NCBI RefSeq assembly: GCF_000003815.2
Contig: NC_049983.1
Span: forward strand, 22,466,063 to 22,530,062
Source: Branchiostoma floridae
Lineage: Eukaryota > Chordata > Leptocardii > Amphioxiformes > Branchiostomatidae
Length of the DNA: 64,000 nt
Direction: 5' to 3'
In this document: piece after piece, positions 2,153 through 60,410 of the stretch
Layout of the letters: every line of letters begins with the position of its first letter
Numbering within the stretch: the first letter of the stretch is position 1
Notes under the pieces: model-generated
Seen by the model: only the letters and a program-made list of their open reading frames with translations
The model's database searches: none
What the model was told of the DNA's origin: nothing
Program-made: the position numbers and the translations under genes

Positions 2153-2884
2153 AGTAGCAGGTTTTCAGAACAGCTCTCCAGGAATTGTCAAATTTAGTGT
2201 CCAATTTATCGTTTCTAGGTATCAAAAACTTCACAAGTTTAACAGAGAAGTAAACCAACGTTGGACTACAAGATTCCGAACGTCGACCGAGACAGGATTA
2301 CGAAGATACTCGTTGGATTACTGGTGGAAAATAAGAGGATTTCGGATTGAGTTCGAAAGCGTGCCCCCCTCCCCAGCTTTCGGCGTAGTGAGTTCAGAAC
2401 TCCGGAAGAAGTCTCTGAAGTGGAACGAAGATTCCGAACGTCACATTAGTTACAAGAAACCGTCCGGATTTTTCTTTCGTACTCGGAAAAACAAGAAAAG
2501 AGCAGACGGCAACCTTCGAGTGTCACGAGCGCCCCCCTCCCCACTGAGACTACATGAAGACGCAAGTCCAGACGCGCAACCATGTGGCCATAACGAAGTC
2601 GTAAGCTCAAAGACGGATTGGATTCAGCACCGACCACAGAGAGAACCGTCCACGGAGTTGACTCCCTACGACGAGGACAGAGGTTTTTTGTGCTTCCTTT
2701 TCTTCGGGGCGAACTTTGAATTTCAACAAGGCAACACGCAAGTTGGGAACCCCCCTCCCTGCCTGGAAATCTTCGGCATTCCACACGAGTTACATCACAC
2801 ACGAGCGGTCATTCTGTCCTTGATCTGAGGGATAACAAACAAGAAGAAACAAGGCATTTCATCTTCCACCAAAAAAAAAAAAAA

Positions 2885-3937
2885 ATGGCGGAAGGTGCCA
2901 AGAACGACCCCAGCAGGACGAAGCTGCGAAGCTCAAATGTGAGTACAAATATACCTGAACTTAACGGAAAAAAACAAACAGTGTCTAGCAGCAAGAAAAG
3001 CTCTGACAGAGATAATGTACATAAATCTAGCGAAGTATACAACTGTGGCGACTGTGGCAGATTAGTCAAAGACACAGATAAGGCAGTAGAGTGCGAAATC
3101 TGTGTCATATGGTTCCATGCAAGATGTGCCAAAGTTTCTGACAGTTTATACCAAGTTATCACAGAGGAGCCTGACAACTGTCACTGGTTTTGCCAATACT
3201 GTAAACGTGGAGCAAAGAAACTGTATCTAAGTGTGGTAGCACTGACAAGTGAAATTCAAAGCATACATGAGAAACTAGACACTGTCACACAAGAGCTAAC
3301 AGAGGTCAAGTCAGGAATAGAAAAACAAACACAGCAGTTAAGAAGCAAGGACAATATATTGGAAACGAGAATACAGAACTTAGAAGAATTAAGTCAAAAG
3401 GGAATACCCCCACAGCAGATCGAGCTTGGCAACCTCACAGAGGATGAACTGCTAGAGAAGATTGTAAATGCAACAACAGACAAAGTAACCAGATCGGTAA
3501 CAGAAGAAGTAAACCAGAAATTGAGCGAGAAAGAGGACCAGGAAGCAAGAAAATTAAACCTCATTGTTCACAATCTACCCGAAACTGGTTCCAAGCAAGG
3601 AGACATAGATAGTGTTACAGAGCTCTTCCAAGAAGAATTCAGGCTGAAAATGAATGTTGTGAACGCACAGAGGATGGGCCGACCCAACAACGATAACACA
3701 AGACTAGTAAAGGTAACCATGAACAATGTAAGTGACAAAAAGCAGATCTTGGCCTTAGCCAAAGACCTACGAGAAAGTACACATGCAGTCCACAGTAAGA
3801 TATACATTAGACCCGACCTAACCAAGCTACAACTAGAAGAGTCAAAAAACCTGAGAGAAACCTTGAAGACCCAGCGAGAAAAGGAACCAGACAAAAGATG
3901 GATGATAAGAAGAGGAAGGGTGGTAGAAATCAAGTAA
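2885..3937 (+). CDS. LINE ORF1 protein with PHD-type zinc finger
   Basis: 350 aa nucleic-acid-binding ORF1 of the LINE. A Cys/His-rich PHD-like finger runs from about residue 54 to 107 (YNCGDCGRL, VECEICVIWFHARC, CHWFCQYCKRG). A Gln/Glu-rich coiled coil follows at about 110-175, and then a region beginning ARKLNLIVHNLPE that resembles the RRM-type core of L1 ORF1 proteins. PHD fingers in ORF1 are known from CR1-clade elements. It probably coats the element RNA and helps form the ribonucleoprotein. The start follows an A-rich stretch (ATG at 2885). The stop overlaps the start of ORF2 by 40 nt, in a different frame, which suggests coupled reinitiation. No internal stops. Confidence 0.88.
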   Translation: MAEGAKNDPSRTKLRSSNVSTNIPELNGKKQTVSSSKKSSDRDNVHKSSEVYNCGDCGRLVKDTDKAVECEICVIWFHARCAKVSDSLYQVITEEPDNCHWFCQYCKRGAKKLYLSVVALTSEIQSIHEKLDTVTQELTEVKSGIEKQTQQLRSKDNILETRIQNLEELSQKGIPPQQIELGNLTEDELLEKIVNATTDKVTRSVTEEVNQKLSEKEDQEARKLNLIVHNLPETGSKQGDIDSVTELFQEEFRLKMNVVNAQRMGRPNNDNTRLVKVTMNNVSDKKQILALAKDLRESTHAVHSKIYIRPDLTKLQLEESKNLRETLKTQREKEPDKRWMIRRGRVVEIK

Positions 3938-6858
3938 AGAAATGTGATATCCACGATTTACAAGTTCTATACACCAATGTTGACAATTCACTTCTGAGTA
4001 AATATGACGAACTATGTACTCTACTGGCGAACAAACATTACGATATTATATCACTTGTCGAAATCAAACCCAAACAAGGGCAAACTCCCGATACAGCTGT
4101 GATGCAGATAAAAGGCTATGATTTGTTCATAGGGGACCTAATGGCACAAGATACAAGAGGCACATGTGTATATGTGAATTCCAAGTTTTCCGCCAAGCAA
4201 GTGAAGCCACCTGTGGTGTTTCCAGATAGTACATGGGTAGTAATCAATGGTAAAGAAGACACATGTGTACTTATTGGAACTATCTACAGGTCCGGCACTC
4301 CGGGTCTAGCAATCACACGAGACCCAGCGCTGCACGAGATGCTGAAATGGGCTTCAAATATGAACACAACACATCTGCTTATTATGGGGGACTTCAATCA
4401 CCCAAGCATTGCATGGACCCCAGAACCGCACATGTGGACAACACACAGAGACAGTACCGACAATCCGGCATCTCGTTTTGTTGAGTGCATACGCGATAAC
4501 TACCTACAACAGCACGTGACAGAGCCAACGAGATTTAGAGGGGACCATACTCCTACACTTGATGATCTAATACTTACTAACGAACCAGGGATGGTGGAAC
4601 AACTATTGCACGAGGATCCACTAGGCGCTAGCGATCACGTGAAACTGGTGTTCAGAGCCAGGTTTGCGACGGCTCCCCCTGTGAACGACAGGAAACAGCT
4701 GAACTATGAAAAAGCTGACTACAGCAAGATGAAAGAGAACATGGACTTAGACTGGACAAAAGTACTAGAAGGCATGACGACACAGGAGGCCTTCAACACA
4801 CTGCAAGAGAAAGTAATGAAGGTGGTAGAAGAGAATGTACCGACGAAGAGAACGGGAAATACAACAAAGAAAAGCAAACCGAAGTGGATGACACATGAGG
4901 CTCAACGTAAAGCCAGAAAGAAATTCCATGCATGGTTAAGGTACCTCAACACGAAAAGCAAGGAAGACTGGAAAACTTACAAAGAATGTAGAAATGCCGC
5001 AACACATGCTGCAAGACAAGCACGTAGAGACTTTGAACGATCACTCGCCAAGGAAGCTAAGACAAATAACAAAGCTTTTTGGAGTTATGTGAACTCCCGC
5101 AGATCAGTAAAATCACAGGTGGGTGACTTGAAGGACACGAAGGGTAACTTTGCTACCAAAGACAAGGACAAAGCAGAAATACTAAATGATCAGTACCATA
5201 AGACCTTCACACGCGAGATCTACGACAACATGCCAGTATTCGATCCCAAACCTCTACAGACTCCGGTCCTGGACAAAATAGAAGTCACTGAGGAAATGGT
5301 TATGGACCAATTATCCCAGCTGCGTCCGGACAAGTCCCCAGGTAATGACGGACTTCACCCGAGAATTCTTAGAGAACTGTCACACGAAATTGTGGTCCCA
5401 CTAACCAAGGTTTATCAACTCAGCTTAAGTAATGCAGTACTTCCAGAGCAGTGGACGGAAGCAAGTATCACTCCTATCTTCAAAAAGGGTGAGAAGTCAG
5501 ACCCAGCAAACTACCGCCCCGTCTCGCTAACGTCAGTGCCCTGCAAGATGCTGGAAAGAATAATTTCAGATAAGGTGATTGAACACATGAGGATAAACAA
5601 TTTCACATGTGAGCAACAGCACGGTTTTTCCAAGGGGAAATCAACAGTGACTAACCTACTCGAGGCACTTGACGTGTGGACCGAAGCCTTAAGTCACGGA
5701 CTACAAGTGGATGTTATATTTTTAGACTATGCTAAGGCTTTTGACACGGTCCCACACGAAAGGCTCCTTAGAAAGGTCGAATCCTTTGGCATTAGAGGAA
5801 AGCTGTTAGAGTGGGTACGAGGCTTCCTAACCCAACGAAGACAAAGAGTCTCGGTAAACGGAGCTACATCGTCCTGGAAGAGGGTAGAAAGCGGAGTCCC
5901 ACAAGGGAGTGTACTGGGTCCCTTACTATTCATGATTTTCGTGAGCGATATACCGGACACACTGCAGAACTTTGTATCTCTCTTTGCGGATGACACAAAG
6001 ATCTATGCAACCGTCGAGGACTGCGCAAGAGAAGGTCATACGACCTGCCTTCAGGCCGATCTAGACCAACTACAAGAATGGTCGAGAAAAATGCAGATGA
6101 GATTCCACCCTGATAAGTGTAAGCCGATGCACCTTGGGAAGGGTAATCCCGGACACAAATACACAATGATCAAGACAGACGGATCAGTACATACCCTACA
6201 GTGTACAACGGAAGAGAAAGACCTAGGAGTACTCATAGACAGTAAGCTGAGCTTCAGCAGTCATGTACAGAACCAGGTCAACAAAGCCAACAAGGTGCTC
6301 GGTGCTATAAGACACACTTTCAAATATCTGGACATAGACTCATTTGTGTTGCTGTACAAAAGCCTGATACGTCCCCACCTAGAGTATGCAACGGTCATTT
6401 GGGATCCAAAAACAAAGAGAGACAAAGACATGGTGGAGAGGGTACAGAGAAGAGCTACAAAGCTGGTTCCTTCAATCTCCCACCTTCCCTACGCACAGAG
6501 ACTAAGGGCTCTGGGACTACCCACACTTCTCTTCAGAAGGAAAAGAGCAGACATAATTCTTCTCTACAAGATAACACATGGGTTAGTCACATGCAGAACC
6601 AGTAACCACTGCAACCTCTGTAGCAGAGCTATGCTCACGCCTAGCCTGGCAACCTCCACAAGAGGCCACTCGTACAAGTACCAGATACAGTGCTCCAAGG
6701 GTCTAAGGGCCAATTTTTACCCAGCAAGAGTGATACCCATGTGGAATAAGCTCTCCGAACAGACGGTGACCAGCAAATCAGTGAACTTGTTCAAATCAAG
6801 GTTGTCGGCTGAGTGGAACACACACAAGGACCTGTACGAATACGAGTTCTCCTACTGA
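3898..6858 (+). CDS. LINE ORF2: AP-type endonuclease and reverse transcriptase
   Basis: 986 aa, uninterrupted. The N-terminal third is an exonuclease/endonuclease/phosphatase domain: the catalytic Glu lies in SLVEIKPK, then GDFNHPSIAW and the terminal LGASDHVKL. The reverse transcriptase follows: PDKSPGNDGLHPRIL, FKKGEKSDPANYRPVSL, VDVIFLDYAKAFDTVPHE, SGVPQGSVLGPLLF, and the catalytic FADD at residues 696-699. A C-terminal thumb and Cys-containing region follows (CRTSNHCNLC). The domain order is that of the CR1/jockey group: target-site nicking and primed reverse transcription. The annotated start overlaps the ORF1 end; the true start could be a later Met. All catalytic motifs appear intact. 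Confidence 0.92.
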   Translation: MDDKKRKGGRNQVKKCDIHDLQVLYTNVDNSLLSKYDELCTLLANKHYDIISLVEIKPKQGQTPDTAVMQIKGYDLFIGDLMAQDTRGTCVYVNSKFSAKQVKPPVVFPDSTWVVINGKEDTCVLIGTIYRSGTPGLAITRDPALHEMLKWASNMNTTHLLIMGDFNHPSIAWTPEPHMWTTHRDSTDNPASRFVECIRDNYLQQHVTEPTRFRGDHTPTLDDLILTNEPGMVEQLLHEDPLGASDHVKLVFRARFATAPPVNDRKQLNYEKADYSKMKENMDLDWTKVLEGMTTQEAFNTLQEKVMKVVEENVPTKRTGNTTKKSKPKWMTHEAQRKARKKFHAWLRYLNTKSKEDWKTYKECRNAATHAARQARRDFERSLAKEAKTNNKAFWSYVNSRRSVKSQVGDLKDTKGNFATKDKDKAEILNDQYHKTFTREIYDNMPVFDPKPLQTPVLDKIEVTEEMVMDQLSQLRPDKSPGNDGLHPRILRELSHEIVVPLTKVYQLSLSNAVLPEQWTEASITPIFKKGEKSDPANYRPVSLTSVPCKMLERIISDKVIEHMRINNFTCEQQHGFSKGKSTVTNLLEALDVWTEALSHGLQVDVIFLDYAKAFDTVPHERLLRKVESFGIRGKLLEWVRGFLTQRRQRVSVNGATSSWKRVESGVPQGSVLGPLLFMIFVSDIPDTLQNFVSLFADDTKIYATVEDCAREGHTTCLQADLDQLQEWSRKMQMRFHPDKCKPMHLGKGNPGHKYTMIKTDGSVHTLQCTTEEKDLGVLIDSKLSFSSHVQNQVNKANKVLGAIRHTFKYLDIDSFVLLYKSLIRPHLEYATVIWDPKTKRDKDMVERVQRRATKLVPSISHLPYAQRLRALGLPTLLFRRKRADIILLYKITHGLVTCRTSNHCNLCSRAMLTPSLATSTRGHSYKYQIQCSKGLRANFYPARVIPMWNKLSEQTVTSKSVNLFKSRLSAEWNTHKDLYEYEFSY

Positions 6859-8106
6859 ACCAGTAGGTTGCAGTGAAGAAAGAACGAAGGAAGGAAGGAA
6901 GGAAGGTAGGAGAGAAGGAAGGAAGGAAGGAAGACCAGATGCTACAGCCCCGCAGTTTAACTATGTACAGCCTCATTACTCTAACGGGTACCTACTGGCT
7001 GTCGCTCAAGGTGAATACTCAAGGTGAATTGTCGGGAGCCGTAATTTTCCGTGGCCGTATCTTGACATTCCCAGCTTAAATTCTCCCATAAATGCGGATA
7101 TAAATGCATACTTTCTCGAAAGACTATTGTAATTGTGTATTTCTTTACGAGAATATTGCAATGTAATTGTGGAATATAGCGTTTTTGTGCGTAGAAATGT
7201 AGCATTTTTCATACAAAGAAATTTTGTTTGACGCGCGGGTGGGCGCAAGGCATCATGGGGCAGCAAAGAAAGAATTCTGCAGCTTGACCAATCAGAGCGC
7301 AGATCATAGAGGGGAACCCCCTACAGCCGTAGGATCAACCAATCAGAGGTGCGTATTCCGGTCACGTGCACGTCTTGCAGACGCTGAGCGGGCGTCATGG
7401 CGGTCGGAGTCGATTTAGCGCCGTATTTGACTGGTAAAACGCCCGGACACGATGTTTTATCATGTTTTAAAATGTCTTTTATAAGTTTATTAGACGCGCT
7501 TAGATGTCTGAGCTCTCGATACAAAAGAGGGTTAGTTTCCTTGTCAGATACAAGTCCTGTCATGGCGCTCTCGATTTCAGAATGAAAAATTAATTACTTG
7601 CAACAAGGAGGTGCTTGCAAGCACGCGGCAAATCAAACTTTGGTTCCGACCCATAAATATGTGACTGGGTCGCAAGCGTAAAAAAATCCTGGAACTAGGC
7701 GGGCAGTCTTCAGTCCCAGTGCCGTTACAGATAGCGCCGAGCTGTAACCGTTAAAATTTGCCCGGCGTGCGGAGGGAGCGTAAAAAATCCCCGGCTTGCG
7801 CTGAGGAACTGGGCGGGCAGTCTTCTGTCCCAGTGCCGTAGACTGGACCGTCGGCGCCGGGCACGTCGCTAGCGCTCGTGAAACAACGCACACAATAACG
7901 TAATTGCTGTTTGTTTTACTAGGGGTGAAACCTTCATTTCACCATGTTTTACTCTTTTGTCACGTAGGTGCAAGATTCGCTTTCACCCCTCCATATTTAC
8001 ATGGGAACAATGCGAATCCGGGTGACACATTTTCACCGTAGTTCACCGTGTTTCACCAACATTCACCCATTATAGGACGTTTTCACCGTAACGGCCAGTG
8101 GTAGTG

Positions 8107-8656
8107 TTAGTGATCATGGGACCCCGGGACTAAATGGGCAGCCATAAGCATATCGTTAGTTTATTTACGCATTTTGATCGCAAGGTATACTAGTGCCCAA
8201 AATTTTAATAGCATATAACGACAAGAATGGTGTCGCTTATATCTTTTCGATGATAAAACTGTCCTAATTAGTCTACCATCGATATTTCAAAACAGGGCTA
8301 ATCTGGTACACATATTGAATTCCTAATTTACCATATTGTTCGCTACTTTTGAGTAACATATGTCTGCATATTAAGAGGGAATTTCGTTTGTGAACAAAAA
8401 TCTTCAGCATGTGACTGAAAACAAAGGAACAAAATGGCACCCAAGCTATCCCATCAGTCATTGCGGTAGTGGGTGGTATTAAAGATTTGAGTGATTTTTA
8501 TGTATGTGTATGTAAGTTTTAAATTTTAGAAATGATTCCGGCCATGCAATTCATCAAGCCTCTGTTAAATCCATCCCTGTGGAGAGACTAAAAATTAAAA
8601 AATTTGATGACATAGAGATCATTAATTAACCTAAGTAGTAAAATCCAAGACTGTAT
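8107..8656. other. Non-coding stretch, nothing recognised
   Basis: AT-rich sequence between the CACTA-type element and the satellite array. No exon, repeat or RNA gene was recognised. Confidence 0.5.
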
Positions 8657-9744
8657 CGATGAATCCCACGGCCGATCGCCAGTATAAGGGACGGAAGTGG
8701 CGTTGGATTCATCAGTAGATCGATGAATCCCACGGCCGATCGCCAGTATTAGGGACGGAAGTGGCGTTGGATTCATCAGTAGATCGATGAATCCCACGGC
8801 CGATCGCCAGTATTAGGGACGGAAGTGGCGTTGGATTCATCAGTAGATCGATGAATCTCACGGCCGATCGCCAGTATAAGGGACGGAAGTGGCGTTGGAT
8901 TCATCAGTAGATCGATGAATCCCACGGCCGATCGCCAGTATTAGGGACGGAAGTGGCGTTGGATTTATCAGTAGATCGATGAATCTCACGGCCGATCGCC
9001 AGTATAAGGGACGGAAGTGGCGTTGGATTCATCAGTAGATCGATGAATCCCACGGCCGATCGCCAGTATTAGGGACGGAAGTGGCGTTGGATTCATCAGT
9101 AGATCGATGAATCTCACGGCCGATCGCCAGTATAAGGGGCGGAAGTGGCGTTGGATTCATCAGTAGATCGATGAATCTCACGGCCGATCGCCAGTATAAG
9201 GGACGGAAGTGGCGTTGGGTTCATCAGTAGATCGATGAATCCCACGGCCGATCGCCAGTATAAGGGACGGAAGTGGCGTTGGATTCATCAGTAGATCGAT
9301 GAATCCCACGGCCGATCGCCAGTATAAGGGACGGAAGTGGCGTTGGATTCATCAGTAGATCGATGAATCCCACGGCCGATCGCCAGTATAAGGGACGGAA
9401 GTGGCGTTGGGTTCATCAGTAGATCGATGAATCTCACGGCCGATCGCCAGTATTAGGGACGGAAGTGGCGTTGGATTCATCAGTAGATCGATGAATCTCA
9501 CGGCCGATCCCCAGTATAAGGGACGGAAGTGGCGTTGGATTCATCAGTAGATCGATGAATCCCACGGCCGATCGCCAGTATAAGGGACGGAAGTGGCGTT
9601 GGATTCATCAGTAGATCGATGAATCTCACGGCCAATCGCCAGTATAAGGGGCGGAAGTGGCGTTGGATTCATCAGTAGATCGATGAATCCCACGGCCGAT
9701 CGCCAGTATAAGGGACGGAAGTGGCGTTGGATTCATCAGTAGAT
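8657..9744. repeat. Satellite array: 17 units of exactly 64 bp
   Basis: The unit start CGATGAATC recurs at exact 64-bp steps from 8657 through 9745, giving 17 complete units with no indels and only a few recurrent substitutions (C/T in AATCYCACGG, TAAG/TTAG in CCAGTATWAGGGACGG). Unit boundaries carry the inverted repeat GGATTCATC-8 bp-GATGAATCC, and each unit also contains CGGCCGATCG. The units are contiguous with no spacers, so this is a minisatellite and not a CRISPR array. The very high identity points to recent homogenisation. Confidence 0.95.
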
Positions 9745-9864
9745 CGATGAATCTCACAGCACTATTGATGATTCCACAGCTGTGGAATTCATCATCTGAT
9801 GAATATCACAGCTGTGGAATTCATCATCTAAGTGATGAATATCACAGCTGTGGAATTCATCAAT
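9745..9864. repeat. Three near-perfect palindromes at the satellite edge
   Basis: After the last 64-bp unit, three copies of a 27-28 bp palindrome (9767-9793, 9798-9825, 9834-9861) centre on CACAGCTGTG and are bounded by GATGAAT and ATTCATC. They reuse the GATGAATC/GATTCATC arms of the satellite, so they look related by descent or by a shared hairpin-driven mechanism. Confidence 0.85.
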
Positions 9865-11006: not shown

Positions 11007-11219
11007 TTACTGTGTGTCAGTAGATATTTCGTAGTCAGTGTCAGTAGATATTTACTATGTGTCAGTGGATATTTAGTAGTTATCTACTATGTGTCAGTAG
11101 ATATTTAGTAGTCATCTACTGTGTGTCAGTAGATATTTAGTAGTCATCTACTGTGTGTCAGTAGATATTTAGTAGTCATCTACTGTGTGTCAGTAGATAT
11201 TTAGTAGTCATCTACTGTT
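11007..11219. repeat. 32-bp minisatellite (CAGTAGATATTTAGTAG type)
   Basis: About six tandem copies of a 32-bp unit containing GTCAGTAGATATTTAGTAG and ATCTACTGTG. The last four units are nearly identical and the earlier ones more diverged. CAGTAG and CTACTG make each unit partly self-complementary. Confidence 0.85.
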
Positions 11220-41108: not shown

Positions 41109-42761
41109 CGTCAGAATATCTGCACATTACTTCTGTGTTAGACATGTTACCTGAGGTCAAGTTGGAAAAGTGAGGACCAATTTTCTTCTTTAATACTTTT
41201 TTGACGGAGGATAATCGATGGAGATGTCGTTCAAGATATTGTACATATATAGGATCTACCAACATCGTCTGAATATCAGAAGAGAAACCGCCACTAGTAT
41301 ATTTTGCACACAAGTCAGGTTATCTGCAAGTACTAGTATTTGTTTTATAACTAAATTTAGTTGAATGCTGAAAAATCAATATTTAGGATGTATCTAATGC
41401 CAACGAGGATTCCAGTGACAACGTAATTAGTAGTTGTAAAAGTAGACAGTCATGTAATACAACAAATGTACTGTGGTTCTTTTGTAGATTATTGTGACTA
41501 ATTATAATAAGCGCGGAAGGCGTGCTCTTAAGGGTGGCTGGGGACATTTATTTGTATATGAATGTATATATTCATTTTAAGATGAGTCCAAATGACGTGT
41601 TCCTTAAAGAGATTTGGCTATGATACAATGACATTATGTATTGCGACATCATGATGGACATCGTGAATAAACATCTGGGTAGAGCGTTTGAGTCTACTGT
41701 CTGTTCATTCATTTATTAAGAAACCTTAAGTATGTTAAGCATGTTAATTGTAATTCATATATCTATATGTTGGTCAAATTATGTACAACGGCTTGCAAAA
41801 GTGAGACCATGCCAGACTTTTTTAAGCAGCATACTGTTATCAATATGTTTGAATTTCTTTTGTAAAATCATGCCCGAGGGCGAATTGTATGAACATTCTC
41901 CAGGCAAGAGAAAAGTAATGCAGCTTATAAGATAAATGTCTAATCAACTATAATGTGCATCTATTGTTGGATTTGACTTCGTTGAAAGCTAGTACAAGTT
42001 ACCATACGTTGTACCTGTAACAATTGCCGCCAATATAGTTCTTCTAAAGTTCTCTGGATTTAGTAGCCCAACAAATATCCACCAAGGTGGTAGGCAAAAC
42101 TTGTCCAACGCATTCGTTGCCATGTACAAACCACCACACAAGTGGCAATTTGAAAAGATCCTTAACGTTTCTTGTGGAAAGGGTTGTACGATCAGTCCAT
42201 CAGGTGAGAGACTCTCTCATACCTCCTCCCACTCAGTTCGCATTTCCTGGAGATTTCCATTGGTGACCCCGTCACGTCGGATAGACCAAGCTCGGTAAGC
42301 ACTTAGAACAAAAAAAGATACACTCAGTGCGTTATAAAAAAGGAAAAAAAAAACAGGTTACAATTACATATCATGTAGTGGCACTATATGGCGACTTACA
42401 TTTCTCTTTACGTTTGTTTCGTAACTGTATTTACCAAATTGTTATTTTTATCAGTATTGTATTCCCGTGTATACTTACAATTAACCTTCGGGCATGCATT
42501 TGCAATAAAGTTATGATTATAGCCTTGGCCTTTGGGGTGCCTCAGAATTACTAAAGCCTCAAGCAATATTATTTCCCTAAACCAAACACCTTTAACTATA
42601 TTCAACATTTTTGTCACTCGGTAACAAAGGGCAACGAGAGCTCACTGTGCACGTGAAATCCCTATACAATTTTGGGTTCATAATCTGTCGTCGACAGAGC
42701 AAGACATCAAGTTGCTCGACGGGGCTCATTAAAAGGCCAAACCAAGCATAAAGTGACTCAC
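41109..42761. other. Non-coding stretch, nothing recognised
   Basis: AT-rich. An AATAAA at about 41664 could end a long gene E 3' UTR. No exon recognised. Confidence 0.4.
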
Positions 42762-43155
42762 CTTGTTTTGTAGTGTTATAATCGGGCACTGATCTATTTG
42801 GATTGATCCCAGGGCCCAGGCGAAGACTAGCCGCGCGTTTCAGCGCAGTTCGGTGATCGTTGAGACGATAGACCGCCCGCGCCAAAGAGACGAACCGGTC
42901 ACCGAAGTCTCCCCTCGACTCGTGGGCGCGCAGGTCTTCCTCCACGGACCACATCGCCCGGTTGACCTCCAGCAGGGGCGCCCACTCCTCGACGGTCTCC
43001 ATATCGACCAGTCCGTGCTCGGACCAAGTCTGAGTAAGCGCCTCGAGCTCTCTCTTCACATTCGCGACCTTGTCGGGGTCGTATATCCGTTCCGCCTTGA
43101 TTTGCAAGATGCTGGCTTTGTCAACGATTTCACCGAATGAGAGCTTGATTTTCAT
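42762..43155 (-). CDS. DUF6165-like protein 1 (first coding exon)
   Basis: Start chosen at the ATG giving MKIKLSFGEIVDKASILQIK; nine upstream codons are also open. The 131-codon exon matches what I recall of DUF6165, a small family best known from bacteria and phages: GEIVDKxxILxIKxERIxDP, DKVANVKRELEAL, VNRAMWSVEEDLRAHE, DFGDRFVSLARAVYRLNDHR and ALKRAASLRLG. The exon ends at a GTGAGT donor (42761-42756); reading through it stays open to 42592, so an unspliced 187-aa form is also possible. The family-typical EEKSY end is missing. Function unknown. Head to head with the paralog at 44016. Confidence 0.65.
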
Positions 43156-43194
43156 GATGTAGTGTCGCACGGTCTTCAACAAGAAGTTTCAGCA

Positions 43195-43775: not shown

Positions 43776-44015
43776 GTGAGTTTGAATACAGAAATCTATC
43801 TTGAGACAACAAAAGCACAGCGTACATGTATGACGTTAACGATACTGTCATAAATTTTATATATAAACAAGTGGATACGAATGGAGTGACTAGCAGTCAT
43901 ATAAATATTAAATAACGGGGGCCGCCCTAAGATGCTTCCTGCCCTAAGATGCCACGGATTATAACCCTCTTGTTGTGTTTTGGAATGTCGTTTAGGTGCG
44001 CCAGATTCAAAGCTC

Positions 44016-44492
44016 ATGGAAGTGGAGCAAGCTCTCGGTGAAGTCGTGGACAGGGCGATCATTTTGCGCATCTCGACCAAACGACTCAGCGACCCGCAAC
44101 AAGCCTCCGAGGCCGAGAGAAACCTGTCGGCGCTGATGACATCATGGTCCGAACACGGTCACGTCGCCATGGAGACGCTGGAAGAGTTCGCGCCACTGAC
44201 GGAGGTCAACAACAACCTTTGGACGGTGGAGACGGAACTTCGCCGGCACGAGTCCCGCCGAGACTTCGGAGAACGCTTCGTGGCCCTGGCGAGGTCGGTG
44301 TACCGACTGAACGACCGACGAGCCGCCCTGAAACGCGCGATCAGTCTGCGGCTCGGCTCCAGACTGATCGAGGAAAAGTCGTACGAAGAGAACACTTACA
44401 GCCGAAGCGACAGAATCGAAAAGGGGAATTCTGATACTATTAAGTCTATCAAGGACATTACATCGGAAGTAACAAAATGCACCCATGTTTAA
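44016..44492 (+). CDS. DUF6165-like protein 2
   Basis: 158 aa, complete. Start at ATG 44016 (MEVEQALGEVVDRAIILRIS); in-frame sequence further upstream has no ATG and runs into a probable splice acceptor. It is paralogous to the minus-strand neighbour across the whole core: SWSEHGHVAMETLEEFAPL, VNNNLWTVETELRRHE, DFGERFVALARSVYRLNDR, AALKRAISLRLG. Unlike gene 1 it keeps the family-typical LIEEKSYEEN end. A Ser/Thr/Lys-rich tail of about 35 residues follows. The family is mainly bacterial and phage-borne and often sits near glycosyltransferases; its biochemical role is unknown. Transfer followed by duplication and intron gain is a plausible origin. Confidence 0.7.
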   Translation: MEVEQALGEVVDRAIILRISTKRLSDPQQASEAERNLSALMTSWSEHGHVAMETLEEFAPLTEVNNNLWTVETELRRHESRRDFGERFVALARSVYRLNDRRAALKRAISLRLGSRLIEEKSYEENTYSRSDRIEKGNSDTIKSIKDITSEVTKCTHV

Positions 44493-51275: not shown

Positions 51276-52455
51276 TGTAGAGTGAATTTAAGTCTCACTG
51301 ACAACCCACACTAGTACTGACCAGGTCTGTGTGGGTATATATCACTGTATCAGTCACACTGAATGTCCTTCCATCTGTTTGTCCAGTCTTGTTTTAAATG
51401 TGGGAGGATCCTTTCTTTCCTTGGCCAACATAAGTATTTAGCTTGGGTTGTCTTGAAATGTGGATGCATACTTGAAAGGGCAAACTCTTCACCCCTTTTC
51501 TGACATTCTGGACCTAAGTCTGTGCTCTGCTTCAATGTATACATTGGCATTCCAAACTTCATGTTGTGGATGATAGCACTGGGAATTTCAAATGATGACA
51601 TTCCATATTTGTTTTCAAGAGATTCACTGTAACATTATTGTTAATTTTGCAGAAGATTGAAAAATAAAGGTCTCATATGCATTATGCTTCTTATCCAAAC
51701 TCTATCTGTGCTATTCTATGCTATGCTATGCTGATTGGGAATAGTTTACTGACACTTTTTATTAGGGTTGATTTTCCTGAATCTTTTGAAGGAACAACAT
51801 TTTGCGGAAGCTGTATTGAAAAATGAACATTCCGAATAACAGCAATACCACAATGTTTTGGCAAAACAAAATTACTGTCTTTGTTCAGGATGGAATGCCA
51901 CTCTTCATTCCTAGCTATTGGTCGATTGTTATTTCAGCCACATCCTTGTTGATCATTTTTCCATTGGGTGATTTGTCCAGCCTTGAGTGATCCATTCTCC
52001 CTCAGATGGAGGACAGATTACCAGGGGCTGGCATGTTTAGAAAACTGGAAACACATGCAGCAGGACCGATCGGTTTGTGTGAGGTAACAGACTGTTACAG
52101 ACATCAACATCCTCCTTAAAGTGTATAAGACACCCCAGTGCATCATTATGGGACTAAATCAAACAAAGGTATCACTATACAATCGATATACACATAATTG
52201 AGAGGTAAACACTGTTCGCCTGTTAAAAACGAAATTTGATCTTCGCGTCACGAGGCTACCGATAGATAGAACGACGCGCCTCTGGGCGCGCCTCAACCGG
52301 GAATGACGTAAGCAGTAGAAGAACGCGGGGGATTCGAGGGATTCCCCGGCGCCATTTTGATTGTTAGTAAACACTGTCCTCAGGAAGACTCCGGCTATTT
52401 CTGAGGGATTTAGTTTGTCCAAGGACGTTATATATAACGCCCTTGGTTTGTCAAC

Positions 52456-55400
52456 ATGCCTACACGGTGTGTCGCAGCGTATTGTTCGAACTACACGTCC
52501 TCTTCGATAAGTCTTCACAAGTTTCCAAACGACGAGAAAGTTCGCGAGAAGTGGGTGCAGAACGTACGGCGGACAAGAGGCCCTGATCGGGAGGGGAGGG
52601 AATGGACGCCGAGCCCGACCTCTCGGCTGTGTTCCGACCATTTTACAGAGGACTGTTTCGACCCTGCCCAGGATTTGAAGAGATCGTTTGGGTTCAATGC
52701 GAAGCACCGTAGGGAGGTGCTGCCCGGTAAAATTCCAACCATCTTTCCCCGAGGCCCGGCCGAGCCGAAGCGTAGGGAATCACAGGCTGTAGCCAAAAGG
52801 CGTCACCAGGAGGTAAATATGATATTTTGAGTTGTCTTCTGTTTTATCTCGTTGGGATATAACATTAACAGGGCAGCATTTACAGGGGTTATAGTTTCGG
52901 AAATTTTCGTTTGTTTGTTCGTTTGTTTCTTCTTGGTAGTTTAAACAAGAAATCTTTTTAAAAAATGCTGTGCCTTGCCGCGTGGTAGGAATATCGTCAG
53001 GAAAAGGTAGGTCGGCAAATTGTAGAAGGCCGCGGTTACAGAAAGAAGTTGTCGTGTTTATTTTCATCAGCAGTGAATGTATTTTTTGTAAGAAATTATG
53101 ACTTATGAATTATATCTTTTGTCAAATAAATATTATTTGGTCAACAAGGCATGGTATTTGGAAAAAAAATTTATGTACAAAACTCATGAACATAAACATC
53201 ACATAACAGAGGTAACACTTGCCAGTAGCCAAGATAATGTCATACAACAAAACACAATATATGCTGTATTTATAAATAGTAGTCATCAGCTGCTTATATT
53301 CTATGGTTATAACATGTACTACATTTCTGTGAGCAGAGGCTATAAAGTACTAGAATAATAGGAAAGTTGTATTTATTCAGGGCATGTAAGTGTATAGTAA
53401 ATAATGAAAGGCTATCTTTTTATTGTTATTAGATACTCCGAGAATGTCTATCTGCTGAGCCTGTAGAAGAGGGAGGATCTGATCATGACATCTGTGCTAC
53501 TGCGGTGTCAACTGCCAGTGGTCCACCTGTTGATGATGATGATGATGGTCCACCTGTTGATGTAAGTATTGACAATAGATCTGTATGTAAGTTTGGTAGA
53601 GCAGATTTATTTCTTAAAATCACATGAATCGAGATAGTGTCATGGCAGCCAGTCATTCTGTTTGCTTTGTGAATGTGACATGTTTTGAATTTTTTTTTCA
53701 TTTTCCATCTTTTTGCTACTGTAGTAAAATATTGGTTGTATGATATAATATAATAAGGTATTGTATATATATTTTGCATTCTTTTATGTATAGGTGACTC
53801 CAACAGAAAACCAGGGGATACAAGTCCAGCCAGACATGAAATCACGGGCTGTGCAGGCCAGACTGCGAGTGGGGACTTGTAAAGGTATTTTATCCTCATT
53901 ATCAGCTTTCAGCTCCCCACTTGCATTTTAAAGTTTTCTTGTATCCACAAAAATGTCATTGGACCACTTCCTTTCATTATGTATATATATCAATAAGGAT
54001 TATCATTCCTTACAAAGAGTTACAGTATTGATGTATAATATATCTGCAGTAAAATGTAGCCCAAAACAAGTATTTTAGACAAACATTTTTTTCTCAGATG
54101 CTATACACAGAAGTTATATGTACAAACCTGCATTGTTACACAGGGCATCTTTCACTCTGGGATGTTTTTTGCTATATTGTATTAACACAGGTGTGCAGAT
54201 CAAGCCTACTGTTACAACTATTGGCATACAGAACAAGCCTTCAGTGAAGACCATCTCCACCCAGACACAGATCACATACAACAACCGGTTGCAGGAGTTA
54301 GATGCCATGTCTGAAGTTTCAGAGCCGGTGGAGGATGCAGCGTACGAGAACGATCCAGACTACGAGCCTATGGAGATATCGGATGATGAGGAGGACCCAC
54401 CCGAGGAGGTGCCAATCCCCGAGGCCACGTCAGATACCCTGCCGGACACACGCATCTTCATGGTGTTCTGGACATGTTTGGTGCAGCTGTTCTCCACGTG
54501 GTGTTGCTGTCCAGCGTGTCCCTCTAGGAAGCTGATTTGGCACTGCAAGGAAGTCGGGACTCACCTGCTGGTGACATTCCTGTGCAGAGATTGCAGCTAT
54601 GAAGATACATGGAGGAGCCAGCCTTCCTATGGCAGGACTGCCGCGGGGAACATTTTGCTGTCATCTGCTATACTGTTCGCTGGAGCCAGTGTGACCAAGG
54701 TGCTTAGAGTCTTGTCACACATGGGCGTGGCCGTTATGTCAACCCGGTCATTCTTCCGCCATCAAGAAAACATCCTGTTCAGGGCCATCCGTACGCTGTG
54801 GAGGGAGCGGCAGTTCTGGATGCTGACAGTCCTGCAAGCCGAGCAAGAGCCCATTGTTTGTGGTGGGGATGGCCGCGCGGATAGCCCAGGACACTCTGCG
54901 AAATATGGAACTTATACAATGATGGAGCTGAAGCAGACAGCTGTGATAGACGTGCAGCTAGTGCAGGTAAATTGTACTCTAACACTGTCTCTTACTTGTA
55001 AAAAGTAAACCATCTGTCATGCTGTTTCATAAGGAACACTAACGCTTGATCCAAAGATAATCTGTGTCTATATGATATCAATATTTGAGGTGACAACTCA
55101 TCATGTATATTAACTTGTAAAGAAATGTTCCAGTGTTATCATGCCCCCCTCCCTTCTTCAGTTGTATATTGTGCTGTAGTGGGTTTCAATTGCCATCTTC
55201 CATGTTACAGTAGTCAACATCACAAGCAATATGTGTTACAGAGCAACGAGGTAGACAGCTCCAACGCCATGGAAAAGGAAGGTCTTCAGCGCTCCCTGCA
55301 AAAAATCCAGGAGTATGCAGAAATAGGCACATTGGTCACTGATCGACATGCAGGAATAAACAAGATGATCCGTGAGCAGCATCCCAACATCCAGCACCTC

Positions 55401-58185
55401 TTTGATGTCTGGCATGTTGCCAAAAGTAAGCCTAACCTATTCATACATATTTACTGCTTTACTACTATATTTAGGAGAGGATATTTCTTTATACACCAAT
55501 TATGATTTAACAGCTTTCCTCGATTTAAAAGAGTTTTTGTTTTGTTTTTCCCCTTTCTTTTAAGTCAGTTTAAGTATTCAAGTGAAACTCCTGGTTCTCG
55601 TGTTATATTAAAGTAATATATGATAAAAATTGAAGAAAAAAAATCATTTTGCACGTCGATGAAGATTAGACATCTAGGCAATAAGATACGCCAAAAAGCA
55701 ATTACTCAAGCAACTGGATTTGATTTTGGAAACGGTCAGACGTTTCAAACAAGATCCGTTGTTTTTTGTCAGTGACACGTTTCATTTACACTTGTTTATT
55801 CAGGCATCAAGAAGAAGCTGAAGAAGCTGAGTAAGACGAAAGGCTGTGAAGACCTCAAGGTATGGATTGCCAGTATCATCAACCACCTTTATTGGGCTGT
55901 GACGTCTACACCTCCTGGCAACGGTGACCTCATTGTCGAGAAGTGGAAGTCTGTGCTTCAGCACATTCACAATCGGCACAGGGGCTTTGGCGGGCTGTTC
56001 CCAAGGTGCGCACACGGGCGACTGAGGGGAAGAGAACGGCGCAAGCCATGGCTCTCTTTTCGTAAGTATAAACTATTTTTATAGTACCCTGTAGTTATAG
56101 TATTTAGCTAAGGTTTATGAGATATAGTTTTGTGTTTGCTTTATTCATTTGCAGGAACTAAGTACACAGGCACATGTTTTCCAGATACGAAGGTCTCTGT
56201 GGAACTGGAGAAGATCGTCTGCAACAAGCAACTATGCAAGGCCTTGAAACGCCTTTCGCCATCCTACCAGACGTCATATCTCGAGGCCTTCCATAGTCTC
56301 ATTCTACATTTTGCGCCCAAAATGTACCACTACTCGTACCAAGGGATGGAGAACAGGTAATCGAACCGTAATCTTCTTAAAGATATAAAAGTTCCCCTGT
56401 TTATAAGCAAGTTTTTATGTGAAATAAGCAGCGGTCAATTTAATGCGAATAATTTTCCCAATAATTCTTACTGTTCTTGTTTCTGGGCCAAATGCAGTAA
56501 TACTTAGTATTTACATGTGGGTAGCTTTATTGTAGAATGATTACACTGTTTGTGGTCTCATTTCAGGGTAATCCTGGCGGCATTACATTTCAACGAGAAC
56601 GCGCACAGGGCGCAGGCACGGACCAGGGATGGAGACGGCATCTTCAGCATCCACTTCCCCAAGTACAAGCAGGGCGGGCACATTGTTAGGAGAGTGCTAG
56701 AGCAACCAACTTTTGGTAAACTATTCAATCTTTTTGCATGCTTCTACGTTTTGACAGTTCATCAGTTTAACAGTTTTTTTAAAATAATCTATATTCATTT
56801 TTCAAAATCAATAGCTGCACATACTGGAATGTACATAGGATTCATAGATTATCAAGTACACTGACAGCCTTAAACACTTAAATCATATGACTTAGATATG
56901 CAGATGGATGTCAAAAATAAAATACCAGTCATTCAAAAATAGTAATTAAGAACAAATTGTGTGTGGGCTTCACTAATACAGGCATAATAAGTCAGTTCAA
57001 CAGTTTGTTTAATTGCTCATTCACGGTTTTCCATGAACCCGGTGTAGTTAGGAGAGGAAAATGCCCTCCTAATGGTAGACACAACACACGCTGGCAGAGG
57101 GACTCTGATCTCCTTGCCCAAGTGCCCGTAGCACCACCGGACAAACTGCCTGTATGCTGTGTATCTCTTCCACCTGAAACAGGAGACAAGCATTTGTAAT
57201 GATACAGGCAATAATCAGAACTCCATTGTTTAACTTTAAGAATATTAGAACCAAAACACACATCTCTCTTACTGGTGCAGAAAACGATATTTTCAATATA
57301 TTGCTCTCATGTTCAACTCATATATCCGTCTACGTAGGTCAGTTTCTTCATAATGTATTCCAAATGCGAGACCAGATTACTCCTACATAACTGTACTGTT
57401 ATCGATAGTGTTTTGCTATTGTTTTGTATGTAGCCTCTTAGTACTATTGTCTGTATAGCTATTAGTTGTTATTGTTTGCCATACATTGTACCCTGTGCGA
57501 TTGTTGAGCAATAAACTCATTCATATTCATATTCATATTGCAGGGAGGGGAAATGCATATAAAAGTGACGATTGAATTTTGGACAAGTGGAAAATTGGTT
57601 CGAGCAAGTAATTTTTTTTTTATATAGTTGCCTGATTAGCAATAGGACTGGTGAATTTTAGAAAACTTGTCCAATCTTGTGTTCTTAGTCATATTTACAA
57701 ATAAATTGAGAATATTTCCTGCCCCAAACTACTTTATACTTACTCATTTCCAAGATTCTCTCCATATTGGTCCTGGTAGTTGATGTGTGCCACCTCCAGA
57801 CCATATTCATTCAAGCACACGGGCTCAAAGCCGGGGTGCTGAACGATACACTGCAGGCCGTCTCTTTTTTCAGACACTCTGTCTTGCTCATGACAGCAAA
57901 TGCTCTCAGTGAGTGTAGGCATCACTTCACAGAGTCCGCAAGTACACCTAGTAGTAAATATGCAACATAACGTTAATTGATTTCATTTAAACTTGGTCTT
58001 TATCAGGTTACGTCATGGAGCTGGTGGGTCTGGTGAAGCGTATGTGTGGTGGAGAGGACTTCGATGGTGACGTCCTGGAACAACAGATTCCAGAGCCGCT
58101 CAGCGCTGCCTGTGACAGGCCAAACAAGGCAGACGCAGTCAGGAGACACACAACACGTTTTGCTGCAAACAATTTGCAGTACTAG
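52456..58185 (+). CDS. THAP-domain transposase (Kolobok-like)
   Basis: Nine exons: 52456-52812, 53433-53561, 53794-53884, 54191-54966, 55242-55425, 55804-56061, 56155-56356, 56567-56715, 58007-58185. All have GT-AG borders and matching phases; total 774 aa plus stop. Exon 1 is a THAP zinc finger (C2CH): CVAAYC, FPNDEKVREKWV, LCSDHF and the closing IPTIF. An acidic linker follows. The catalytic part includes a CxxC pair (CCCPAC), AAGNILLSSAILFAGAS, GDGRADSPGHSAKYG (first candidate Asp), VTDRHAGINKMI (second Asp), FDVWHVAKS, YLEAFHSLILHFAPK (candidate Glu) and AALHFNENAHRAQA. These match, from memory, a widespread metazoan THAP protein family. THAP binds the element ends; the core cuts and inserts at TTAA. 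Assigning the catalytic residues is inference. Confidence 0.85.
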
Positions 58186-59776
58186 TAGTGTTTCATCGTA
58201 GCTTAGGATGACTGGCATGCAGAGAGTGCTAGATAGGTTTTTCCTTAAACAACCAAAAATGGCTGTCAGTATGTCTGTGTCAAAAATCATACTGGTTCAT
58301 TTTGTACTTAGCACAATATCAATGTGCTTCTTCACTGATTTTCACTGTACTTTTATATGTGTCGGCCGAGGATATTGATAAAGACACATGACATGTTTTG
58401 CTGCAAAGATGCAGTGATGTCTGGAACATTGAGATATGTTTACTAGATGACACCTGTCTGAAACCTTTTTTTCATTTTTTTTTCATGTTTCATCCTAGTT
58501 ATGGATGGCTGGCAGATGGTGTTAGGTTGCCTTTTCCTGGAACAACCAAAAATGGCTGTCACTATCTCTGTGTCAAAAGTGATACTAGTTCATTTTGTAC
58601 TTCTTGACGAATTACTAGCAATTGTTGGTATAGAAAAGGACTAGTGTCTATCTTGACCTCAAAACTTCTCACGTTTTAAATATTGTTGCAAGGTTTGACT
58701 ATTATAATATGTTTCACCTAAGGCTAAGCCAAGGATGACTGACTTGCACTAATAGCTTGATGATGAAGTTTTCTTACTAGCAGGCAGTGATTAATATTAG
58801 TAATAGCTAAGCTTGCAAAGAAATGCTATCTGGTCAGTATCTGTAATAAACACAAGCTGTTTTTGAGACCACACAAGTTGTATAAAATGATGGTATTGAA
58901 AAGTTGTTGTGCAACTACAGTCAAGAAACCTATGAAAACGTGGAAACACTGCTCATGTGATTTTTGGCAACTTATCTAATATGAAAAAAAAAAGAATATC
59001 ACCAAAACAAAATACCAAGTGAAAATCCTCGTCTCTTCAAAACATTACAACCTCTATGTTGGATTTGGATTACTCTTAGAGAACACATATTTGACGGTAT
59101 AAGACGTGACCTGATATGTAGCGGCGAAGTTTTGAGCCGAGGGCACCCGTACTATAGGGGAGATACGATCTCACACACACGGACGTAATCACGTAAAATT
59201 TGGACTTGAAGTAAGAAAATCGACGGCAAAGTAAACTATATTAGGTTTAATGTTATTTTTTCCATCGTTCACGCACACACTCCAATTGTTTGTTATGTTT
59301 CAAACGTAGAAGTCTGTCCACGAACAAATGAAACATAGCGCGGCGGCCAAGAAAACAATTTGGCCGCCATCTTTTTTTTCACGACACCATGACCTCTAAG
59401 AGTCTAACGTAAAAATATGCTCTCTCTACAGCCTACTTTTATGTTGTCTATTCTATGTCCATGCTAAAAAATAGAGATATAAACCACAGGAATAACATGA
59501 AAGCCGTTCTTACCATGATTCGACATTTTGTATGTCTCGCGGGATCCCTGCTTCAGCGCCCCCATGTTGAAAACCGGCAGCGCCAGCGCCAAGGTCTTCG
59601 TCACTGCCGGAGCTCGGCTCCTCCGCTGGCGGATCGTCCAGGTAGGGTTCGTACCTATACGGCTCAACAGTGACAATGTCCGCTAGAAACTGATCATGAT
59701 CTGGACCGAAGGGTTCCTGAAACTCATCACTGGAGTCACTGGAGTCAGAGTGCTGAAATTTCTCTTCGTGATCCAT
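57017..59776 (-). CDS. P2X7 C-terminal-like (ballast) domain protein encoded in the transposon
   Basis: Three exons: 59776-59514, 57947-57744, 57173-57017. Junction phases agree (TG|G, GA|G); 207 aa. Exon 1 is acidic and disordered (SDSSDSSDEFQEP, then VEPYRYEPYLDDPP). Exons 2 and 3 encode a Cys/His-rich globular part: WCTCGLCEVMPTLTESICCH, CIVQHPGFEPVCLNEYGLEV, YTAYRQFVRWCYGHLGKEIR and LPACVVSTIRRAFSSPNYTG. This pattern is that of the zinc-binding cytoplasmic C-terminus of the P2X7 receptor, found alone in many invertebrate proteins annotated as P2X7-like. No channel or membrane segment is present. Exons 2 and 3 lie in intron 8 of the transposase gene. The role in transposition is unknown. 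Confidence 0.85.
57199..57540 (+). mobile_element. 5'-truncated LINE insertion inside the Kolobok-like element
   Basis: Reads ILLSCSTHISVYVGQFLHN and FQMRD, resembling the C-terminal end of a LINE ORF2. A short 3' UTR follows, ending GAGCAATAAACTCATTCATA and a (ATTCAT)n tail (about 57510-57538). It has inserted into an intron shared by both transposon genes without disturbing an exon. Confidence 0.55.
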
Positions 59777-60410
59777 CAGTCCGGTTGTTTACTGGTTTGC
59801 TGGTTGTGCAGACGAGCGGGCGGTACGCATGCGTTCTACTGTTTACGTCACGGCGCCACGTGACTTATTTCTGAGACGGTCGCCGGGCTTGGCCTGGCCC
59901 CTCGGGAAAACCACACTTTGAAAGGTCATCAAAACTTTATTCCGCAATCATGGGGTTTACAATTAACTTCAAAGTATTTTATTGTGTGTACATTTTTGAT
60001 ATTCACAGGCTTTTCGACTATTAATGGAGGTGTCTTATGCACTTTAACAGGCCAAAACAATGGAATTGATTGGTTCACTGAGAAACTCTGAAGAAAACAC
60101 CACTTCAACTTGATTGCAGTCTTAGAGTTTTTTCCAAGCTCTAGAATGAAAAATTGTAAAAAATGCTAGTCAAACTTGCAAAAGCTCAATGTTTCTGACT
60201 TAGGGAAAAGAGATACTACTACAATGAGCGTAGTTCACTTGCCTAGAAGTGGTCAATGGCCTTGCACTGAGCAAACTTACATTCTATAAATGTACATGTA
60301 TGCGTGAAAAAACTATATCCAGTATAAGTTAGGCTAGAAGAATGAAATGATGAGTACAACTGATTATGTGGGCGAAGCCACACATTTAGTATTCTCTACA
60401 GATATTCCAA

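Follow-up and report, generated by a model that had tools for sequence, protein, structure and literature searches.

Why does a gene for the ballast domain of the P2X7 tail lie inside a DNA transposon, on the strand opposite to the transposase and threaded through its introns? We met this arrangement in 64,000 nucleotides of the Branchiostoma floridae genome (NC_049983.1, positions 22,466,063 to 22,530,062 of the forward strand; the whole stretch is called the window, and its contig C5). A Kolobok element extends here from a TTAA at 52116 to a TTAA at 60047 (7,932 bp including both TTAA). Based on its sequence features, we read the minus-strand gene as KolX, the second protein of a Kol0-type Kolobok, and consider it fairly probable that KolX would serve as an accessory factor in transposition. 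An earlier note on this DNA had given 57017..59776, the exact limits of the minus-strand gene within a larger element. The features are as follows, where C1 and C2 are contigs with further copies and TIR stands for terminal inverted repeat.

52116-52119, no strand: left TTAA target-site duplication; TTAA likewise at the C2 and C1 copies with unlike outer flanks
52120-52134, plus strand: left TIR, 15 bp, starting 5'-AG, 14/15 identical to the right end
52456-58185, plus strand: transposase gene, nine exons, THAP and Mutator-like transposase domains; second copy 98-99% identical
52456-52812, 53433-53561, 53794-53884, 54191-54966 and 55242-55425, plus strand: transposase exons 1-5 (gene model)
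55804-56061, 56155-56356, 56567-56715 and 58007-58185, plus strand: transposase exons 6-9 (gene model)
56716-58006, plus strand: transposase intron 8, which houses KolX exons 2 and 3 (gene models)
57017-57173, minus strand: KolX exon 3, final zinc cysteine C185 and ballast helices (gene model, alignment)
57229-57536, no strand: dispersed repeat of about 308 bp resembling a short interspersed element, ATTG duplicated, in intron space common to both genes (genome DNA search)
57744-57947, minus strand: KolX exon 2, zinc cysteines C89-C121 in protein numbering (gene model, alignment)
57948-59513, minus strand: KolX intron 1, which houses transposase exon 9 (gene model)
58007-58185, plus strand: transposase exon 9, inside KolX intron 1; homologous exon in two other families
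59514-59776, minus strand: KolX exon 1, encoding the acidic N-terminus and its PYRYEP motif; also open in the C1 copy
60029-60043, minus strand: right TIR, pairs with the left end at 14/15
60044-60047, no strand: right TTAA target-site duplication (sequence)

KolX carries a ballast domain and no channel

Splice junctions were limited to GT/AG in both gene models. KolX consists of three minus-strand exons (59776-59514, 57947-57744 and 57173-57017); of eight splice combinations tried, two were open, and the one of these that ended in a stop codon gave a product of 207 amino acids. This protein matched the Pfam domain P2RX7_C (PF20478) with an expectation value (E) of 4.8e-16 and 59.7 bits (cut-off 23.5) and contains all seven zinc cysteines. 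P2RX7_C was its sole Pfam match at E up to 1, and a P2X channel domain was absent from this search, which supports the earlier description of a P2X7-like C-terminus without a channel. The window has a single occurrence of the third-cluster motif of the domain, which lies in KolX, against none in 100 shuffled windows. The second-cluster pattern was uninformative (13 in the window versus 3.5 per shuffle), and the single window match of the first-cluster pattern falls in the transposase; at KolX itself a splice junction divides the W of this cluster, which hides the pattern from any reading of unspliced DNA.

A structure predicted from the single KolX sequence was unusable (mean predicted local distance difference test score, pLDDT, 39.5), and the model from a 12-row alignment was taken instead. 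In this model the C-terminal part is predicted to adopt the ballast fold, the outcome that the earlier note had proposed to look for. The N-terminal 84 residues, with 22 D/E and 3 K/R, are probably disordered. KolX would bind zinc and is presumably expressed. It shares with P2X7 (ballast structures solved, for example, in 6u9v and 9e3m) the domain, the seven zinc cysteines and the equivalents of R546 and R578, but it differs in lacking the channel, in leaving three of five guanosine diphosphate (GDP)-contact residues unmatched and in having a long acidic N-terminus instead.

The transposase kept an open reading in four splice variants (770-774 amino acids) and matched the THAP domain (E 2.1e-16, 60.9 bits against a Pfam cut-off of 23.9) and a Mutator-like transposase domain (E 5.7e-13, 49 bits against 26.5); its Pfam matches include no model named Kolobok. 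We spotted by eye a DVWH after a TDRH stretch and an H-x2-H-x9-C-x-H pattern, unaligned to published sequences.

The ends of the element, together with the THAP and transposase domains, agree with the Kolobok superfamily. TTAA, the target-site duplication typical of Kolobok, flanks three copies in different surroundings, and the termini AG...CT fit the 5'-RR / YY-3' rule given for the superfamily in the part of Kojima & Bao 2022 (PMC9587614) available to us. The combined TIR and TTAA pattern had two matches in the window versus a mean of 0.04 in shuffled windows, and the inverted similarity of the ends dies out past about 15-20 bp. The sections of that paper on KolX describe it as the second protein of TTAA-targeting Kolobok elements, with a ballast fold and seven conserved cysteines; KolX with both, the mark of the Kol0 lineage, is what this element encodes.

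KolX belongs to the transposon

The genome searched for copies comprises 513,431,437 bases in 431 contigs; 40 of 5,160 candidates of the DNA search were scored, and copy counts are lower bounds. At least two further copies of the window's family (family A) are present, on C2 and C1, each bounded by TTAA at either end and set in different surrounding DNA. Along most of the C2 copy (13626584-13633775) the identity is 98-99%, and a gap of 100 N occupies the expected site of KolX exon 1. All its transposase exons are stop-free, with a 3-base gap in exon 2 and three synonymous and three replacement changes in 773 codons, and its KolX exons 2-3 are open. The C1 copy (921893-926346) retains element positions 1-1170, 4333-5113 and 5422-7932; transposase exons 2-7 are gone and KolX is complete and open, with four synonymous and three replacement changes in 208 codons. 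KolX can therefore outlast its transposase. On C10, a family-B copy has a deletion that starts inside transposase exon 4 and takes in everything up to and including exon 9, and it keeps matches to all three KolX exons; its right end lies at a TTAA, and its left end was sought and not found. In these two derivatives most of the transposase is gone and KolX is still there, which disproves the earlier claim that neither gene could be lost by simple deletion without hitting the other. KolX exon 1 sits outside the transposase gene span.

We next considered ballast domains throughout the genome. A P2RX7_C search (16 places, none of family A) and a KolX search (27 matches) together gave 21 ballast places, and a search with the Kolobok transposase core gave 26 matches at 22 places. 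At 12 of the 21 ballast places a transposase core lies within 12 kb, and in all 12 pairs the two are on opposite strands and tail-to-tail (0.02 expected). Four more ballast places (C1:921k, C3, C6:3959k and, weakly, C17) have Kolobok transposase pieces that escaped the core search, and on C18 there is a right-end remnant with a TIR-like end and TTAA. Thus, 17 of the 21 places are inside Kolobok elements or remnants; the remaining four were viewed with short flanks only. One family-B element (C1:7912199-7919320) is flanked by TTAA, with ends matching at 12/15. The opposite-strand, tail-to-tail order is constant, and KolX recurs both among copies whose flanks differ and across several diverged families.

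Could the minus-strand gene be a host ballast gene that was hit by a transposase insertion, the pairing being accidental? In the portion of Rump 2020 (PMC7016195) that we draw on, ballast genes are treated as host genes with an ancestral linkage. KolX, however, lies within the TIRs, copies with different flanks have it (exons 2-3 only on C2), and opposite-strand pairs recur across families. This explanation is already contradicted by the independent copies and is hardly credible, and the earlier placement of the gene inside the transposon is upheld. The ZCD/NANOR-like proteins of that paper resemble KolX in being short and non-membrane with a C-terminal ballast domain, but they are presented there as host genes, and a word search of its main text does not return 'transpos'. 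The same source reports the wide, patchy spread of the ballast domain.

Families A-G are 33-66% identical to the window's KolX over the aligned parts, and the seven cysteines, AYRQ and IR are conserved across them. An N-terminal motif, [PA]Yx[FY][EQH]P, was present in all five readable KolX N-termini, from families A, B, D, F and G. These N-termini (window 59776-59514, L065, L012, L003 and L001) are otherwise variable and acidic. The motif occurred in 0.01-0.07% of shuffles of the five, figures that flatter since the pattern was written post hoc. In the C18 remnant, the fourth motif position is C, and the motif was absent from both N-termini examined of a further group of ballast genes, the H type.

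The interlock was seen in one of four families

As the earlier note had it, transposase intron 8 encloses KolX exons 2 and 3, and KolX intron 1 in turn encloses transposase exon 9; the two genes have 0 bp of coding exon in common. Past the stops, the nearest hexamers of poly(A) type, at 58845 (plus strand) and 57008 (minus strand), each fall in the partner's intron, and mature messages would thus not need to overlap. Both nested relations are visible in the window and in the C1 copy; the C2 copy has the same order of KolX 3, KolX 2 and exon 9, with KolX exon 1 unassembled.

The interlock depends on the placement of exon 9. If this were a gene-model error, as the open read-through of exon 8 to 56864 might suggest, the genes would merely be convergent. 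However, exon 9 has homologues in two related families (46% identity, E 2e-12; 38%, E 4e-5), B and C, where they follow exon 8 or exon 7 homologues; its acceptor has TCTTTATCAG before it; and it is 100% identical across all three family-A copies. We therefore regard such an error as quite improbable.

The last transposase exon was placed in four families and not located in D, E, F and G. In family B, transposase exons 7, 8 and 9 precede KolX 3, 2 and 1, and hence there is no interlock; in family C (C19, C202) exon 9 is likewise ahead of KolX 3. The H elements on C3 and at C6:3959k have a conserved open reading frame (ORF) outside KolX, taken as the last transposase exon by position and unmatched to exon 9. 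The interlock was thus seen in one of the four families, that of the window, and the threading of the two genes looks peculiar to it. In families F and G, a single open frame covers both the N-terminal part of KolX and the ballast, without intron 1. In the domain tree, A and B+C are neighbours (support 0.65) and D/E and F/G branch outside them; the simplest reading is therefore that the exon order changed in family A and that the interlock is derived.

Such a change could have arisen by tandem duplication of [exon 9, KolX 3, KolX 2] followed by complementary loss, which would yield the interlock without any inversion. A point against this origin is that duplication remnants, sought as exon 9 pieces in 56716-57016 and as KolX exon 2/3 pieces in 58186-59513, gave nothing better than E 0.2; the duplication is accordingly a putative step. 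A direct repeat is present just past exon 9 (58189-58309 and 58486-58602; 98 of 121 columns identical), with a score of 74.1 against a best of 15.4 in 200 shuffles. The repeat of about 308 bp in the shared intron space has at least 33 further places at 90-98% identity and ends in ATTCAT-like units; it is missing from the C2 copy, where the empty site is seen, and from the C1 copy.

The interlock indicates that the exons of two convergent transposon genes can be reordered until each gene has exons within introns of the other; as related families lack it, this step can be studied. The account of KolX in the sections of PMC9587614 on hand comes without exons, strand or interlocking. In searches of the open-licence literature, one of them aimed at nested or interlocked genes in transposons, we met no report of an interlock limited to one family or of KolX kept in deletion derivatives.

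A possible accessory role of KolX in transposition

What might KolX do for the element? It starts near the right end, on the strand opposite to the transposase, and has an acidic N-terminus with the [PA]Yx[FY][EQH]P motif, followed by a presumably zinc-binding ballast domain. We think it probable that KolX works alongside the transposase and serves as an adaptor, with the transposase itself and/or the DNA of the TTAA-flanked ends as its binding partners. The link to TTAA is speculation on our part. We favour an accessory role by analogy, because other Kolobok lineages have opposite-strand accessory proteins. According to the passages of PMC9587614 on these lineages, KolobokP encodes its transposase on one strand and, downstream of it, an accessory protein on the other, and one red-algal Kolobok element has RecQ on the opposite strand. 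KolobokP differs in encoding a His-Me finger nuclease rather than KolX and in its long terminal direct repeats; no direct-repeat pair of at least 60 bp joining both ends was found in the window's element.

Several results weigh against this reading. Ten of the 22 transposase-core places have no ballast match within 12 kb, several of them being fragments. The earlier expectation that other Kolobok copies carry the gene is accordingly borne out by the 12 opposite-strand pairs and not by these ten. The Kolobok piece on C17 is weak (E 2.4e-4) and has stops. The structure model has low confidence at the first zinc cluster (about residues 85-120), and Foldseek with this model gave no match at E 0.001 or better. 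The GDP-contact residues of P2X7 are mostly missing from KolX (2/5 matched). Finally, dN/dS, the ratio of replacement to synonymous rates, derives from very few changes, too few for a firm selection test: besides the copies above, pairs of places gave synonymous/replacement counts of 1/1 in 210 codons (family B), 1/0 in 111 (C), 3/1 in 130 (G) and 0/0 in 49 (E), and some of these pairs may be assembly duplicates.

The two deletion derivatives, from two families, might instead point to a factor directed at the host or at regulation, for example in anti-silencing or transposase titration, which would act in trans and so could persist without most of the transposase. The acidic N-terminus would agree with this, as acidic N-termini are typical of many regulators. 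Yet both derivatives also surfaced in the KolX and ballast searches, and preferential retention is therefore not demonstrated; the ten core places without a ballast match likewise speak against it. We deem such a factor unlikely, though worth keeping in mind. KolX might also be a captured host-gene fragment, a passenger without function, given the few substitutions available as evidence of selection and the absence of most GDP-contact residues. This is improbable in view of the cysteines, AYRQ and IR kept in families A-G despite their divergence, the N-terminal motif in all five readable families and the frames open in the window, C1 and, for exons 2-3, C2 copies; the sections on Kol0 in PMC9587614 also tie KolX to elements of diverse animals. 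An accessory role in transposition remains our preferred reading.

Searches of mainly prokaryotic and viral collections, which reach close relatives only and have little bearing on animals, confirmed no transposase relatives in viral_contigs and no KolX relatives outside this genome in viral_contigs, genome_contigs and phages, with none in PHROGs.

An H-type lineage as a possible closer relative of the P2X7 tail

The link between the ballast domain, Kolobok and P2X7 is already published: in the portion of PMC9587614 consulted, the P2X7 tail is said to derive, in all likelihood, from KolX with its ballast fold, and KolX is proposed as the source of Nanor as well. A transposon source of the tail, which the earlier note had thought possible, is thus already in print as likely; our results do not support placing the window's family nearest to P2X7. 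Against human P2X7, the exon-3 segments of three H-type places scored 106-118 and a fourth, shorter segment 80, versus 59-75 for families A-G. Like P2X7, the H-type ballast genes (L004, L005, L006 and L007, on C3, C6, C6 and C17) have the letters RH and/or PSCC. Next to the H genes on C3, at C6:3959k and, weakly, on C17, the opposite strand carries divergent pieces of Kolobok transposase; at C6:27768k, one of the three high-scoring places, no Kolobok piece was present in the flanks viewed. The tree groups P2X7 with an H row (0.76), the H rows being partial and the P2X7 branch long. Because of the exon-3 scores and the tree, an H-like Kolobok is a better donor candidate than the window's family.

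We tentatively propose that an H-type Kolobok was the kind whose KolX became the P2X7 tail and that, alongside, the family-A interlock arose by tandem duplication with complementary exon loss; that both hold is possible, with the balance tilting against it. The TTAA-ended copies in one genome support the published transposon origin of the tail, and the H type, as a narrower candidate lineage, makes the origin of this drug-target domain more testable. We met no report of a closer H-type lineage or of the N-terminal motif in the open-licence literature, where neither was searched by name.

Other features of the window

A long interspersed element-like sequence (2720-6858) encodes an endonuclease and a reverse transcriptase (RVT_1, E 7.6e-37, in the ORF 3811-6858). 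Tandem arrays with 64-bp and 32-bp units lie at 8527-9850 and 11011-11218. Related leucine-rich-repeat genes are clustered at 18899-40527, where segments repeat at a spacing of about 3.4-4 kb; one of the three ORFs scanned in this cluster had weak immunoglobulin matches. The ORFs 42592-43188 (minus strand) and 43965-44492 (plus strand) are alike by eye, and the first matches DUF6165 (E 7.3e-7), a mainly bacterial family.

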